A DNA stretch of 64,000 nucleotides from Mytilus galloprovincialis (taxonomy: Eukaryota > Mollusca > Bivalvia > Mytilida > Mytilidae): positions 62,825,122 through 62,889,121 of the forward strand of contig NC_134849.1 in the NCBI RefSeq assembly GCF_965363235.1, written 5' to 3'. Shown here in pieces: positions 2,540-64,000 of this stretch. The position numbers were made by a program, and so were the translations under genes. How positions within the stretch are numbered: position 1 is the first letter of the stretch; each line of letters starts with the position of its first letter. Below the pieces are notes generated by a model. That model had not been told where the DNA came from, ran no database searches, and saw only the letters and a list, made by a program, of their open reading frames with translations.

Positions 2540-3490
2540 CTCCCATAACTCACCATTCATATGGTCCCATGTTCATTTGATTTGATTTTTTGTCCCATAC
2601 AAGAATATATATGGCTTACGAGTAGGGATCTCCACCATTTACAAGTATTCAAACAGGAGGGGGTGGTGGTGACCCCCAGGAAATTTACCAACATTTCATG
2701 TGATTTGTTTTATTGTCCCCTACAAGAATGTATATGGTTTAAGGGTGGGGATCTGGACTGTTTACAAGATAATAGCACATTCTCAAATTGAACGGGGTGG
2801 GGCGACCCCCAGGAACTTCCCTTTAATTTTATTTGATTAGCTTTATTGTCCCATACAAGAATATATATGGTTTAGGGGTGGGGATGTTAACCGTTTACAA
2901 GTTTTCAAACAAGAGGGGGTGGGGTGACCCCCTTGGGACTTCCCTCTTATTTCATTTCATTTGTTTTATTGTCCCCTACAAGAATATATATGGTTTAGGG
3001 GTGGGGATGTTGACCGTTTACAAGTTTTGAAACAGGAGGGGGTGGGGTGACCCCCTAGGGACTTCCCTTTAATTTCATCTCATTTGTTTTATTGTCCCCT
3101 ACAAGAACATATATGGTTTAGGGGTGGGGATGTTGACCGTTTACAAGTTTTGAAACAGGAGGGGGTGGGGTGACCCCCTAGGGACTTCCCTTTAATTTAA
3201 TTTCATTTGTTTTATTGTCCCCTACAAGTTTATATATGGTTTAGGGTTGGGGATCTGGACCGTTTACAAGATAATAACACATTCTCAAATTGAATGGGGT
3301 GGGGATGACCCCCGGGGACCTCCCTTTAATTTCATTTGATTTGTTTTATCGTCCCATTTAAGAATATATATGGTTTAGGGGTGGGGATCTGGACCGTTTA
3401 CAAGATATAAGCATATTCTCAATTGAAGGGGGTGGGGATGAACTCCAAGGGACTCCCCCTATATTTCATGTGATTTGTTTTATTGTCCTA
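2540..3490. repeat. Tandem array of 123-bp and 134-bp related units, about 8 copies
   Basis: The landmark TGTCCC/CGTCCC occurs at 2591, 2714, 2847, 2970, 3093, 3216, 3350 and 3484, spaced 123, 133, 123, 123, 123, 134 and 134 bp. Short units carry CAAGTTTTGAAACAGGAGGG, long units CAAGATAATAGCACATTCTC. Confidence 0.92.
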
Positions 3491-3762
3491 TAATCAATTC
3501 TGAAGACTGCATGTATCTATCACTTACAGATTTTCAAGTTATATTCATTTGAAAATTTTAGAAAATAAAATCCCATAGGGTTCTATAGTAAACCCCTCCC
3601 TCCTTTCTACCCCCCAAAATACCCATTAATAGACCCCAATGCACAAACAAAAGATTGATGGCTCACCTAGACATATTAGTCTACCATTTTATGAAATTCT
3701 AAGTCAATCTGACATGCGGTTTTGGAGAAACACTGCGGACAAGTTCATTTTTAAAGTGGCGG

Positions 3763-4011
3763 GAGAAGAAGAAGAAGAAGAAGAAGAAGAAGAAGAAGAA
3801 GAAGAAGAAGAAGAAGAAGAAGAAGAAGAAGAAGAAGAAGAAGAAGAAGAAGAAGAAGAAGAAGAAGAAGAAGAAGAAGAAGAAGAAGAAGAAGAAGAAG
3901 AAGAAGAAGAAGAAGAAGAAGAAGAAGAAGAAGAAGAAGAAGAAGAAGAAGAAGAAGAAGAAGAAGAAGAAGAAGAAGAAGAAGAAGAAGAAGAAGAAGA
4001 AGAAGAAGAAG

Positions 4012-4041
<30 letters not shown>
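3763..4041. repeat. (GAA)n microsatellite, about 92 repeats uninterrupted
   Basis: 279 bp of pure GAA/TTC. It produces spurious poly-Glu and poly-Ser reading frames. Polypurine mirror repeats of this kind can form triplex H-DNA. Flanks (AAACTTTGTTTGGGAC) recall the CCCAAACAAAGC next to the preceding array at 2530. Confidence 0.97.
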
Positions 4042-4042
<1 letters not shown>

Positions 4043-5934
4043 CTCCAAACTTTGTTTGGGACTTAAATATTCAAATTAAATGTACTTCAATTGGGAAAAT
4101 ATTGCATCAATTTTATTTCAAAATGATATGCTCATGAATACTTCATGAGTGATAAATACATGTACTCTAAATAGACACGATCAGTTATCAACAATAATAG
4201 TCAGAAATAATCATCGAATAAAAAATAACTCTAATCAATAACTGAGCTGCATCGGATAAAAAAATGACCTTATTCAAAAAATCTGTTAAATTATTCGGTA
4301 TAAAATCAATATCTATGCAGAGTTGGAAATTAATTTGAATGTTCCAATCAAAGTCCAATACATGTACATGTATACTTACACTTGCATAAGGTCGATTTCT
4401 ATCCCATGCAGTTCAACTTTAATTTTATATATATTTCTATTTTCCTGAAAAGTGATCTTAATATAGATTGATAGATAAAATTATCTTTGACGACAAAATT
4501 AACCATAAACAACATAAAAGATTAAACATTTGTATTTTGTCGAACAAGGTATTTCTTCACAATTTTAAGGTCTTTAAAAAATACTTTGTTTATTTATTTG
4601 TGCTGAAGGAAGAATAATTTACCTTACATAAAAAACAATGGTTTATTTCTTGATCCATGAGGAGCCAACTCCAATTACCCTTCCCGGTCATAATCTATCC
4701 CTAGAACTGACGATAAATAAATCATGTGATTTGTGTAAAAAAACAATCTAATGATTCACAATTTTTTTCTCAAAAATGGCTAAGACAAATAATGATTTAA
4801 TCATTATATTTATGACACAATAAAAACAAAAACATTAATAAACAATCCCAAAATAATAAATGTTAGAACTAAAAAATATTTTCTTGGTTGCTAATTTACA
4901 TATTCAAAATCACTATCATTCAAGTGTTTTATCAAACAATCAAATCACAAATGATACCAAGAAGTAAAATGACACAGATATACATTTTGTATTTACATAT
5001 TAAAATAATGGATAAAATAATATTGATACACCAAAACTTTATTGAATGTACAAATGTTTATTAAAAAAAATGGCTCTTTCTTTCCAGTTTTCATTAATAC
5101 ACTACTTAATTAAAAACCATCCCCACTTTCCCATTTCTTAATACATTGTACACAGATGCATTTCAGAAATCTAATGCATTCTGGGTAATATTTTCAAAAG
5201 GAAAAACTTAATTGTAACTTCCTAAAAACATTTTAAACAAATTTATCCAAAATTTCTTTTGAATCATGTTCGAATTTGTTTTAACAAAATTTAACAATTT
5301 AATCATTTCAGATCTCCAGTAAGTTTACTTTAATATTATGCTTTGACTAGACACAAGACATATATTTTCTAATTAAACTAAAAAGGTGTGAAATCCACAC
5401 AAATCACATCCTGTTTACATAGAAAAAACACTTGACAGAACATATATTTATTTAAATCCACAATTATAAATCTTAAATGCTCAGCATTTTATTATACAAT
5501 AAATGCAAATTTTTCAAATGACAACTTTAAAACATGATATTTTAACAACAAATTATGTTGCCATGACAATAATTTGACTAGACAAACTTTTATACACCTA
5601 TTTTTCAAAAACAACATGTCACTGCAAATTAGCAAGAGAAACTTAGAATTTTTTTCACACAGATTTTAGAAAAAGAAAAATAATAGTTGAAATTGTACAT
5701 AGAAAAAAATCTTAAATACAAATCAAAATATAGTGAAAAGTCGAGGTAAACACTTCATCCTGCTAAAAAGATTTGAATAGTAGTTACATAATTTAACAAT
5801 GTATTGCTAATTCAAAACACTTATTTGCAAAATATATCAGATTATTGCCTTTTGCCTGGTAAATTTTTATTAAAGACAGCAGCAAAATCTTTTACACACC
5901 ATGAAAGTTTATCAACCTTTCCTGGACAATGTGG
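4042..5934. other. A+T-rich DNA downstream of STK3/4, no gene seen
   Basis: No convincing coding exon on either strand. The segment 5168-5203 (ATGCATTCTGGGTAATATTT) recurs inverted at 14825-14862. Part may be STK3/4 3' UTR; AATAAA-like signals on the minus strand are too many to choose from. Confidence 0.5.
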
Positions 5935-57120: not shown

Positions 57121-57929
57121 GTAAGACAATTGTTTTAAGTCTATATTTTAAATTATAAATAAATGCAAGTTTTAATTATTGAAAAAATGTAAGTGGCGAA
57201 ATGAATCGATTATGGAAAAAGTTAATTATGGGTTTATATATTATATTTAAAAAAATGAATTTCCTTCCATTTATATCTAAAAAAAAAATATATAAATTGA
57301 AAAAAAAAAAACCAGATGCAAAATGATAAAAGAACAAGTATATTGAATATAAAAAAAAATGAGAAAAATTTAAAGATATATTTTTTAAAAGTCTCTAAAC
57401 TTGAAAAAGAATAACTTCTGTTCGCCGTACTTATTTTTAGGATTTACTTTTTTCAAATAGATATTGGGGGAACACTTTAAAGATTCAATTTGATCATATT
57501 ATGTTTTGCTATTCGTAAATCAGGTCAATTCGAACATCTTAAGTTGGTGCTTTATTTTGCCGTAAGAATTGAGGAGATTTGGTTTGATTGACAGTGAAAT
57601 AAATGACTTAAATTATTAAAAATAACTATTGGTCACTGTACGGCCTTCAAGAACCCACACCGTATAGCAAGATAAAAAACTAAAAGGCCTTAAAAAATGT
57701 AATTCAATTCAAACAAGATAAAAGGCTTTCATCAGTAAAGCCATTCTAAAAATTACGAAATGAATGCATGCATTTTGATATAATGTAAAATTTTCTGTTA
57801 AATTTTGGTCGCATGTTCTTTGAGAAAAATCAAATTTCATGTCAAAACATATAGCTAATGATATATCATATGAAACAATCATACGACCGTACTATGTCAA
57901 TTGGTACTTAATTTCAATTTGGTCTTTAA

Positions 57930-58100
57930 AACTTTTTTTATTCGAGCAGTACTGATGAGTCTTATGTATACGAAACGAGCTTACCGTAATAAAGCAATTG
58001 ATCTGTTCAAGTTCGTACTGTATTTGGCCTCAAGTTTTTTTTTTATTCGAGCTTCACCGACGAGTCTTGTCACGTGTACACGAAACGAGTTTCAGACGTT
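57930..58100 (+). ncRNA. Two tandem hammerhead-like motifs, decayed
   Basis: First: CTGATGAGTCTTATG (57952 on) then ACGAAAC (57970-57976). Second, 105 bp later: CCGACGAGTCTTGTC (58057 on) then ACGAAAC. Both follow TTTATTCGAGC. The first keeps the CTGATGA core, but its stems II and III are broken; the second has two core changes. Probably relics of the retrozyme family, plus orientation. Confidence 0.45.
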
Positions 58101-60204: not shown

Positions 60205-63157
60205 GTAAATAGAAAATATTTAGAACTCTGTATTAACTAAGCGAGATTATCAGTTTTTAATGATGGTGATAAATGACTGCTTAACGTCCAGCGGAAAATA
60301 TATATGCCTATTCAGGACGAGGATAATTTTATGATAATGTGATTTGAATATTTACCCTCATTTGAACTAGACAGACACGCTGAGTCGGCATTTTTAATGA
60401 GCAGTTAGTTATGTACACAATTTATAACAAAACAATCAATTTTACCAAGGCTATAGAATATGTCAAACTATGAGGAAACAAAAAACAACATAAGAATAAA
60501 TTTGAAGGTTTTGCAGGACTATGACAGCCATCTTGCACATACAATCGCCCATGGGGATTTTGAAATGTTAGAAAATATGTAAAACAATCAATCGAAATTG
60601 CATTAAGCTACTCAGGTATGATGCTGCTGCGGAGCTGCAAGTCTCCTAAGGTACTGTGCGTTAAAGCCAGATATTTTGAAAACTAGTGAGAATTTATATT
60701 TGATATTTTATTTCAGAACTTAAAAGCAAAGAACTTCGATTTGACTTTGCGAATCTTGCCCTGTCTGCCACACGTGGTCACATCGGGGAACCAATGAAAG
60801 ACGCCATTGTAGTTAGCCATGCCTTTGCCATAAAAGATAATACTGAAAATAGGTACAAACTTTTAGCAAAGAGAACTAAATAAAAAGAGTTAAATGAAAG
60901 CAAAATAATAATTAGATGTAAATAATATAAAAATAACATATAATTTAGCACTGGCTATATTATTGAAAAAACGAATTTAAGGCATTTCTGTTTATTTGTT
61001 TTAATAAATACTGAGTAAATCCCGTCACAGAAATTATTGAAGCAAATAAGCATACTTAGAAGTAATTTTATATGAAGTTTCATATAAAAAGAACCCAACA
61101 ACATAAAGTGACAAAGTAACTTTTGTGAAAAAAGTATATAAAGTATAGTTAAAGGTACCATGCAGGATTATAGTTTAGTACGACAGACGCGCGTTTCGTC
61201 TACATTACACTCATCATTGACGCTCATATCAAAATATGTATAAAACCAAACAAATACAAAGTTGAAGAGCATTGAAGATCCAAATTCCAAAAGAGTTGTG
61301 ACAAATACGGCTAAGGTAATCTATGCCAGGGATAAGTAAATCCTTAGTTTTTCGAAAAAATCGAAGTTTTGTAAACAGGAAATTTATAAAAATGACCACA
61401 TTATTGATATGCATGTCAACACCGAAGTGTTGACTACTAGGCTGGTGATACCTTCGGGGACGAAACGTCCAACAGCAGTGGCATCCACCCAGTGGTGTAA
61501 ATAGTTATCAAAGGTACCAGGATTATAGTTTAGTACGCCAGACGCGCGTTTCGTCTACATTACACTCATCATTGACGCTCATATCAAAATATTTAAAACG
61601 CCAAACAAATACAAAGTTGAAGAGCATTGAAGATCCAAAATTCCAAAAGAGTTGTGCCAAATACGGCTAAGGTAATCTATGCCTGGGATAAGACAATCCT
61701 TAGTTTTTCGAAAAAATCAAAGTTTTGTAAACAGGAAATTTATAAAAAATGACTACATTATTGATATTCATGTCAACACCGACTACTGGGCTAATGACAT
61801 AAAGTGAAATTAAAATTATTAAATTTCTTTTCGCAGTCAGCGTAACTCTGTGATACAGTTGTCTGACAAACCAGAAGAACTAATAAACTACAAAACGAAA
61901 CCATGTCGGAAGAGGATATGTTCAGTAAAAACAAGGTAATGCATCTAAAGATACACCAATATGTTATCATCTCAGACAATTTTGTTTTTATAATGTAGCA
62001 GAAATACATAAAAAAGAAAACAAACCAGTTTAACCCCGCCACATTATGCATGAGCCTGTCCTAAGTCAGTAGCCTGCTATTCAGTGGTTGTGCTATGGTA
62101 TATTAGTCTCAGATTTAAAACTGGGATTTAATAGTCAATATTATTTTCCAGCTGTCCTCGTTTTATAATTGTATCATGTGAAAATCCTATTTATTTATTT
62201 GCAAACTATTACAGCTAGACGCATTGCCCTGAAAAGTATATTGAGTTATGCCGCTTTATACATTTAACAATTTCAAATTAATTTTAAGTTGAAATTATGT
62301 CTTGAACAATAAATGTTTTACTATATCTACGATAGAACAGTATTCGAATGAATAAGCAAATGATACATATAATTAAGCGATGTTCACAGGGGAACTTGAT
62401 TTTTTGTATTAATTCAAGTAGGCAATTACCTACTAACAACTACTCTAGTATCTATATGTGAAGCACAGACTTTTCCCGATGTACGGAAACAAACAAAACA
62501 GGAGTTAGAAAATTCAAGTTATCGCCCCCCTTTTTTGATACGCCCGAACCGCATTTCTGGATTTGAAATTCTCAATTGTACAATCTTAATACCTGAAAGC
62601 AGATATTTAATGATTAAAATGAAATTAAAGCACGATTAAATATAAATATTTACCTATTCAAAGCCATAGTTTGTTGCATTTTAAACACTTCTATATGCCA
62701 TGTGATTGATTTAGATATATTTGAGGCCAGCTAATGCTTGAAATCCAGCATAAAGATTTTTAAATGTTGCAAATGCAAATAGAACATGCACTAGAAATAG
62801 ACCGGTCGGTAAATTGTGAGATTGGCAGGGGTTATATATCATGCCGAAATTGCACGTTTAAAAAAAAACAATTAAAAAAAACAAAACAATGTATTATCAA
62901 TGCATTTCATTTTAATGTAAATTATAACAGAAGAATAATTGTAAAATCACTCTTGGGGCCAACTTGAATCTATGTACTTTTGTACTTTTTTCTTACAGTA
63001 GAGAAAAAAGAGAGTTTGTATGTGAGTACTGTGGACGGAATTTCACCAAGTCGTACAATCTACTGATACACATTCGTACCCACACAGATGAACGTCCCTT
63101 TTCATGTACAGTATGTAATAAACGGTTCCGGCGTCAGGATCATCTTCGTGATCACAG
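59991..63157 (+). CDS. OSR1: Odd-skipped-related (OSR/bowl) C2H2 zinc-finger transcription factor, 5' part; continues beyond the window
   Basis: Four coding exons give the first 202 residues plus two bases. Seen: an OSR signature [19 protein letters not shown] (human OSR1 has [17 protein letters not shown]), a basic stretch [14 protein letters not shown], then zinc finger 1 with Cys158, Cys161, His174, His178 and the start of finger 2 with Cys186, Cys189, His202. [15 protein letters not shown] and [10 protein letters not shown] are diagnostic of the odd-skipped family. The proteins are nuclear DNA-binding regulators of gut, kidney and joint development in other animals. The exon joins are all in phase. 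The start Met at 59991 ([16 protein letters not shown]) is chosen because the acceptor TTTCAG lies at 59969-59974, so the exon begins with 16 nt of 5' UTR. OSR1 versus OSR2 cannot be decided. Confidence 0.92.
60717..60852 (+). CDS. OSR1: OSR exon 2 ([11 protein letters not shown] motif)
   Basis: Acceptor TTTCAG, donor AG|GTACAA. Encodes [20 protein letters not shown] then [20 protein letters not shown]. Carries the conserved motif N-terminal to the OSR fingers. Confidence 0.92.
61177..61223 (-). ncRNA. Hammerhead motif, core changed
   Basis: Minus strand: GCGTCA, then ATGATGA in place of CTGATGA, GACGAAAC, then palindromic stem III ACGCGCGT and triplet GTC. The C-to-A change at the first core base should abolish or strongly reduce cleavage. 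Confidence 0.55.
61532..61578 (-). ncRNA. Hammerhead motif, core changed (second tandem copy)
   Basis: Same as the preceding motif, again with ATGATGA. Stem III ACGC/GCGT and the stem I partner TGGCGT are intact. Confidence 0.55.
61837..61935 (+). CDS. OSR1: OSR exon 3 (basic linker)
   Basis: Acceptor TCGCAG, donor AG|GTAATG. Encodes [20 protein letters not shown] and [12 protein letters not shown], a basic run before finger 1 like the RGRLPSKTKK of human OSR1. Confidence 0.85.
62025..62085 (+). mobile_element. Fragment of retroelement family A
   Basis: AGTTTAACCCCGCCACATTA and GAGCCTGTCCTAAGTCAGTA, the inverse of GGGACAGGCGCAAAAATG...GGGGTTAAAC in the long copy. OSR intron 3. Confidence 0.55.
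62999..63157 (+). CDS. OSR1: OSR exon 4 (zinc finger 1 and most of finger 2)
   Basis: Acceptor CTTACAG, donor AG|GTAAGA. Encodes [20 protein letters not shown] and on to [10 protein letters not shown]. The intron falls between the third and fourth zinc ligands of finger 2. Confidence 0.97.
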
Positions 63158-63404: not shown

Positions 63405-64000
63405 TAAGTTTCAGTTAAATCGTGATTTGTAAGTGTTCCTGTGTTATCAAGTTTTAGCTCAATCGTGATTTGCAGGTGCTCCTGTATTTATCCATTTTTA
63501 GCTCAATCGTGTTTCGAAGGTGCTCCTGTGTTTTTCCAGTTTTAGCTCAATCATGATATGCAGGTGTTCCTGTATTTATCCAGTTTTAGCTCAATCATGA
63601 TTTGCAGGTGCTCCTGTGTTTTTCCAGTTTTAGCTCAACCATTATTTGCAGGTGCTCCTGTGTTTATCAAGTTTTAGCTCTTTCGTGATTTGCAGGTGCT
63701 CCTGTATTTATCTAGTTTTAGCTCAATCGTGATTTGCAGGTGCTCCTGTGTTTATCAAGTTTTAGCTTAATCGTGATTTGCAGGTGCTCCTGTGTTTATC
63801 AAGTTTTAGCTCAATCGTGATTTTCAGGTGCTCCTGTGTTTATCAAGTTTTAGCTCAATCGTGATTTGCAGGTGCTCCTGTATTTATCCAGTTTTAGCCC
63901 AATCGTGATTTGCAGGTGTTCTGTATTTATCCAGTTTTAGCCCAATCGTGATTTGCAGGTGTTCTGTATTTATCCAGTTTTAACTCAATCGTGATGTGCA
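63405..64000. repeat. 44-bp minisatellite, about 13 copies, running off the window
   Basis: Unit TTTAGCTCAATCGTGATTTG then CAGGTGCTCCTGTATTTATC. Variants GTGTTTATCAAG and GTATTTATCCAG alternate. Lies in the OSR intron after exon 4. Confidence 0.92.

Follow-up and report, generated by a model that had tools for sequence, protein, structure and literature searches.

A degenerate retrozyme insertion in Mytilus galloprovincialis and a recurrent internal 3' end among the copies of its family

Introduction

The retrozyme described from Mytilus galloprovincialis comprises about 5000 copies of a type I hammerhead ribozyme (HHR) in repeats of 350-390 bp; a cloned repeat self-cleaves, and the circRNA is abundant in tissues and is ligated by RtcB (Cervera and de la Pena 2020, PMC7229834). 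The same paper proposes a primed circle as the template for reverse transcription (RT), with target-primed RT as one option, and regards Penelope-like elements (PLEs) as a strong helper candidate. PLEs are also the candidate favoured by a 2020 review, according to which the repeats hold no conserved motif from which the helper could be deduced (PMC7761336).

Plant LTR retrozymes are like the mussel family in their tandem HHRs, their circRNA and their non-autonomous nature, but they differ in having a type III HHR, LTRs with PBS and PPT, and a 4-bp target-site duplication (TSD) (PMC4918200, PMC7229834). For the anole PLE PAc/Poseidon, RT has been reported to start internally in vitro, in a stem-loop downstream of the HHR and at AT-rich sites; C3G abolished the activity of the anole HHR, and C3A itself is not reported in the accessible portions of that paper (PMC11167929).

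Here, we compare with these systems a window of 64,000 nucleotides of M. galloprovincialis DNA, and copies of the same repeat family across an assembly of 1.385 Gb in 331 contigs, in which contigs that supplied fetched loci measure 74-133 Mb.

Results and Discussion

A degenerate retrozyme copy in the window

The initial annotation had placed two hammerhead regions 355 bp apart on the minus strand, with a C-to-A change in the core of both, within a tandem of one full and one partial unit. A covariance search recovered both regions with a start-to-start spacing of 355 bp, and the core change was confirmed in each (coordinates are those of the window):

61145..61797, minus strand: retrozyme insertion, a 653-bp tandem of 1.84 units of a 355-nt repeat, GC 36.3%
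61535..61578, minus strand: type I HHR, decayed, C3 to A at 61572, predicted cut 61541/61540, 26.9 bits, E 0.00041
61180..61223, minus strand: type I HHR, decayed, C3 to A at 61217, predicted cut 61186/61185, 25.6 bits, E 0.0011

While the covariance search proposed in the initial annotation thus returned two type I matches, both score under the gathering score of 34, and a default-threshold scan of the window reported no HHR. A gathering-level scan of eight family loci gave one match only, a loop variant in locus L002 with 34.5 bits, even though 13 HHRs with the commonest family core are present in L002 and L008 alone; the gathering cut-off is therefore too strict for the mussel family.

By the features used to recognise metazoan non-LTR retrozymes, the window copy has one type I HHR per unit (under the gathering score here, the commonest core of the family being canonical), a unit of 355 bp present 1.84 times where tandems of about 150-450 bp from dimer to multimer are expected, and a GC content below 45%. 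As to dispersal in many copies, with TSDs where these are present, the core pattern has 9123 matches and the TSDs are only weakly above chance. None of the open segments listed from the window is as long as 170 aa; the frame with RT and GIY-YIG that marks a PLE was not found, and such a frame cannot fit in the 653-bp tandem. As far as the published description goes, the window family is like the M. galloprovincialis retrozyme in its type I HHR, unit length, thousands of copies, low GC and tandem arrays, whereas the window copy is unlike it in carrying C3A in both HHRs. Judged by copy number, unit length, HHR type and GC, the window family fits the published non-LTR retrozyme.

Over 286 aligned bases, the identity between the two window units is 92.7%. 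Compared with a yardstick built from related monomers, both carry C3 to A and two changes in or adjoining stem II, along with further differences of which some are common to both units and some are not. By analogy with the effect of C3G in the anole HHR, a copy with C3A is probably unable to cut itself, and the window locus is probably an ordinary, old and degenerate insertion, now dead. That the locus is instead a live source of circRNA, or an antisense regulator of its host gene, would agree with the shared orientation of the tandem HHR motifs and with their putative intronic position, inside the OSR gene and antisense to it according to the initial annotation, but the C3A change in both HHRs, read beside the loss of activity with C3G in the anole (PMC11167929), makes this extremely improbable.

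Other repeats were noted in the window. A second retrozyme remnant lies at 1341-1817 on the minus strand; it is interrupted by other sequence and keeps C3 intact, but has changed both within the core region and next to it. A short HHR-like stretch on the plus strand (57918-57980) reads CTGATGA...GAAAC with poorly matching flanks. Long tandem repeats occupy 495-904, 2572-3404, 3764-4041 and 63407-64000, and include 278 bp of perfect AGA repeats and 13.6 copies of a 44-bp unit.

Family size and the distribution of the C3A variant

A core pattern of 35 places with three free positions matched the genome 9123 times (4352 + 4771) while the reversed-pattern control gave 0 matches, and an internal 20-mer of the repeat matched 10754 times. 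An exact 39-mer had 0 matches in each of the viral and prokaryote collections.

The C-to-A change had been taken as recurrent, but it did not hold up as a trait of the family. The exact 35-nt HHR variant of the window occurs twice in the genome, both times in the window units, while cores that are canonical except for C3A were found in 51 copies at 51 scattered loci among the 9123 matches, no two of them closer together than one unit. Among the 40 of these 51 loci that were fetched, one array (L035) has two C3A units, the core of the second departing from the exact pattern. Across the family, C3A looks like sporadic decay. As a control, the catalytically neutral change N7 T to A was found in 36 copies at 35 loci, with one adjacent pair; since sharing between units is rare for C3A and N7 alike, these counts allow no statement on ribozyme dependence. 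Variants within arrays were, in the HHR core, fixed in 2 cases, confined to single units in 24 and found in a subset in 2, and in the rest of the unit 139, 492 and 65, respectively, counts that are biased because many of the loci were picked for C3A.

Against this background the window dimer is unusual, as private changes are present in both of its units. Rare variants at circular positions 13 and 248 (circular coordinate 1 being the first base after the predicted cut) are also common to the two units, and unshared differences lie between these variants and the HHR. A common template that already had these changes is therefore likelier than one conversion tract; a single gene-conversion tract was considered for the shared changes and judged less likely, as the shared variants at 13 and 248 stand beyond the unshared differences. 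The C3A of the two HHRs would then have been inherited from the template, or shared later.

A fixed 3' end about 41 nt past the cut

The initial annotation had the monomer bounded by the HHR cut, but the element ends about 41 nt downstream of it. The sense 3' end of the window element, at 61145, corresponds to circular coordinate 40 and so obeys the end rule of the family, and its 5' end lies near 61792-61797 on the minus strand. A block was a local alignment in a fetched locus that scored 120 or higher and had over 40 flanking bases on either side. Among the loci chosen for C3A, 42 of 52 complete blocks had their 3' end at circular 39-48, where 1.5 would be expected if ends were uniform, while the 5' starts were indistinguishable from uniform (KS p 0.15) and three of them fell within 5 nt of the cut. 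For a second sample, the places of the internal 20-mer on contig C1 were followed from the start of the list until 30 loci had been taken, two places being omitted, one of which was already among the fetched loci. Locus L050 yielded no block, and one of the blocks from the other loci was incomplete. Of its 31 complete blocks, 22 ended at 39-48 against about 1 expected, the commonest value being 41 (10 blocks), and the 5' starts were again indistinguishable from a uniform spread (KS p 0.21); a single end, and none of the starts, fell within 5 nt of the cut. The junctions of three loci in this sample (L065, L066 and L067) are identical, as if a single insertion had been duplicated; with the three treated as one, 20 of 29 blocks end at 39-48. 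In most of the sampled copies, then, the 3' end stands at one point some 41 nt beyond the HHR cut, and the 5' ends are spread round the circle. Copy lengths form a continuum between 0.25 and 7.6 units, the longest coming from best-match loci.

Among the blocks that end elsewhere (10 of 52 in the C3A sample and 9 of 31 in the 20-mer sample) are those of a divergent subfamily (L010, L015), which by eye end at the homologous place, and those of a third repeat family (L020, L040, L056), which matches the retrozyme from circular ~106 to 31 and diverges thereafter. This third dispersed repeat (L040 reverse ~1261-2087; also L056, L062 and L020) has about 280 nt of retrozyme-like sequence with a degenerate HHR and another 3' part.

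Copying of a linear monomer would end at the cut and most copies do not, so the template spans the cut, either as a ligated circle or as an uncut multimer. The fixed end points to RT from a single internal position on an RNA that would be either a circle or an uncut multimer, and not from a cleaved end. According to the initial annotation, copies bounded elsewhere than at the cleavage site would speak against a retrozyme; most of the sampled copies are indeed bounded about 41 nt past it, and the retrozyme reading is nevertheless kept, as we read such ends as the mark of an internal RT start and not of the absence of a retrozyme. As an insertion signature of the family the fixed 3' end appears to be unreported: our literature search found no publication on a fixed retrozyme 3' end, and no mention of one was found in the main text of PMC7229834, from which the strings "truncat", "insertion site", "priming" and "junction" are absent.

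Tandem arrays and the form of the template

Other tandem copies were present at at least 124 places in the genome (best 40 of 8881 candidates scored), as the initial annotation would have it, and the longest arrays span roughly 18-19 units among the same best 40 of 8881 candidates. The arrays might be seen as ordinary satellite DNA, extended by unequal crossing-over with the HHR as a passenger. Their lengths, and one array on contig C14 in which variants recur every third unit as in higher-order repeats, are in keeping with this, but scattered copies of 0.25-0.97 unit with one 3' end and spread 5' ends need insertion from a fixed start, and we hold a satellite origin to be improbable. The C14 array (L004, ~33.25 Mb) has more than 8 units, and its every-third-unit variants include A6 to T in the HHR core; this pattern may represent a higher-order repeat or a trimeric template, and it implies that amplification at the DNA level or from a multimer circle also occurs.

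In 12 of 14 arrays the units are more alike within the array than between arrays, and in 2 they are not. Unit identity reaches 98.8-100% in the five youngest-looking arrays, which were taken from best matches. Such identity suits a circular template without proving it. The template could instead be an uncut linear multimeric transcript, for whose insertion HHR cutting would be unnecessary. The fixed 3' end fits this form equally well as a circle, and mutants of the anole PLE HHR left insertion in vitro unaffected (PMC11167929). The window dimer also lends itself to it: the shared and probably inactivating change, together with the rare variants at circular 13 and 248, suggests a template that was mutated beforehand, and if this template already had C3A its own self-cleavage would be hard, so that an uncut multimer is favoured in the window case alone. 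The identity within the five youngest-looking arrays argues for one circle but would follow equally from a homogeneous source array. On balance, we regard the uncut multimer as rather unlikely, though a serious contender, and prefer the closed circle as the template of the family.

Two-hairpin domain and insertion sites

The internal hairpins noted in the initial annotation were found again as a domain beside the end point:

61415..61497, minus strand: two-hairpin domain (predicted fold), circular 44-126, directly 3' of the family end point

For the window sequence at 61405-61501 the predicted fold has -31.9 kcal/mol (z -1.98), with 9 of 200 shuffles as good, and for the hairpin domain of the family yardstick -38.2 kcal/mol is predicted. 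By eye, no compensatory pairs were seen in the hairpins among 40 copies, the changes being mostly one-sided.

Candidate TSDs can be read at the ends of the window element:

61138..61144, minus strand: candidate TSD, 3' copy, ACTTTAT, abutting the element
61799..61805, minus strand: candidate TSD, 5' copy, one base off the element

A longer match of 11 nt joins 61101-61111, further out, with 61797-61807. For the family, TSD scores of at least 7 were reached by 6 of 61 copies against 1.4 expected at the tightest of four settings, and by 6 against 2.5, 11 against 6.8 and 16 against 9.2 expected at the wider ones; exact flank words of 8 or more were shared in 17 of 62 against ~11.5 expected. The TSDs of the family are therefore weak and only slightly over chance. 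In the 5' flanks the last two bases are rich in T (52% and 51%), and there is no G at -2.

The combination of a fixed 3' end with variable 5' ends occurs in SINEs made by LINEs as well, and a LINE rather than a PLE might thus mobilise the mussel family, as with tailed SINEs. The 3' tail of poly(A) or short simple repeats that marks LINE-derived SINEs was not seen by eye at the printed 3' junctions of the sampled copies, and together with the weak TSDs this speaks against a LINE, which we consider a rather unlikely mover. The feature expected of PLE-like mobilisation, a fixed internal RT start 3' of the HHR, is present at family level as deduced from the insertion ends, and a PLE is the helper that we favour.

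Penelope-like elements and the proposed life cycle

The genome has at least 147 GIY-YIG matches (150 of 1001 candidates scored), several of them in open frames of 781-911 codons. In one long PLE frame RVT_1 and GIY-YIG both exceed the Pfam cut-off, and in a second frame RVT_1 is just below it. When the retrozyme was compared with three PLE stretches from the 147 matches, no homology was found except an 80-bp piece of retrozyme in the flank of one copy (L070). Because no homology beyond this flank piece was found in the three stretches, the link to PLEs is drawn from mechanism, by which we infer that a PLE may be the mover of the mussel family. The L070 copy has flanking repeats of 370 bp (530-899 and 3715-4083) that are 98.6% identical. 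By eye, an HHR-like motif in which C3 is replaced by T was seen in them; its last base stands 167 nt short of where the first repeat ends, and an Rfam scan did not report the motif. An RT fragment in L040 was considered and set aside, as it gave no Pfam match; it is near many of the fetched loci, most likely as the chance company of an abundant repeat.

As far as the anole work describes it, the mussel retrozyme is like PAc/Poseidon in its tandem copies, in its AT-rich targets and in an internal RT start 3' of the HHR, which in the mussel is deduced from insertion ends, but is unlike it in having no frame and no homology to the mussel PLEs examined. The start would lie ~41 nt past the cut in the mussel retrozyme and ~85-92 nt past it in the Anolis PLE, figures whose latter is a difference of two reported positions.

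We consider it probable that the window holds an old mussel retrozyme insertion of a family whose RT starts internally about 41 nt past the cut, with a PLE as the most likely helper. Under this account, tandem copies would be transcribed and the type I HHRs would cut the RNA into units of ~355 nt, which a host ligase would close into circles. A reverse transcriptase, most likely that of a PLE, would begin the cDNA internally ~41 nt past the cut, adjoining the stable two-hairpin domain, which may have a part in this step. It would then go round the circle for 0.25 to more than 7 units and halt anywhere, leaving a fixed 3' end and a random 5' end. More tentatively, with somewhat less than even confidence, we suggest that animal retrozymes in general are inserted by Penelope-type enzymes, which would start internally ~40 nt past the cut on a closed circle, recognise a two-hairpin domain and roll round the template.

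If this is true, the arrays are frozen records of rolling-circle reverse transcription. A 3' terminus fixed beyond the cut gives a pointer to the helper and shows where to seek its binding site. It also opens the question of the helper to in vitro tests that bring together purified PLE protein and retrozyme circles. On its own, the window copy contributes little, and it is the signature at the level of the family that merits a genome-wide test.

Long GIY-YIG frames stand in places in opposite-facing pairs a few kb apart, as at C13:29482393-29489131 and C8:49535925-49541044.
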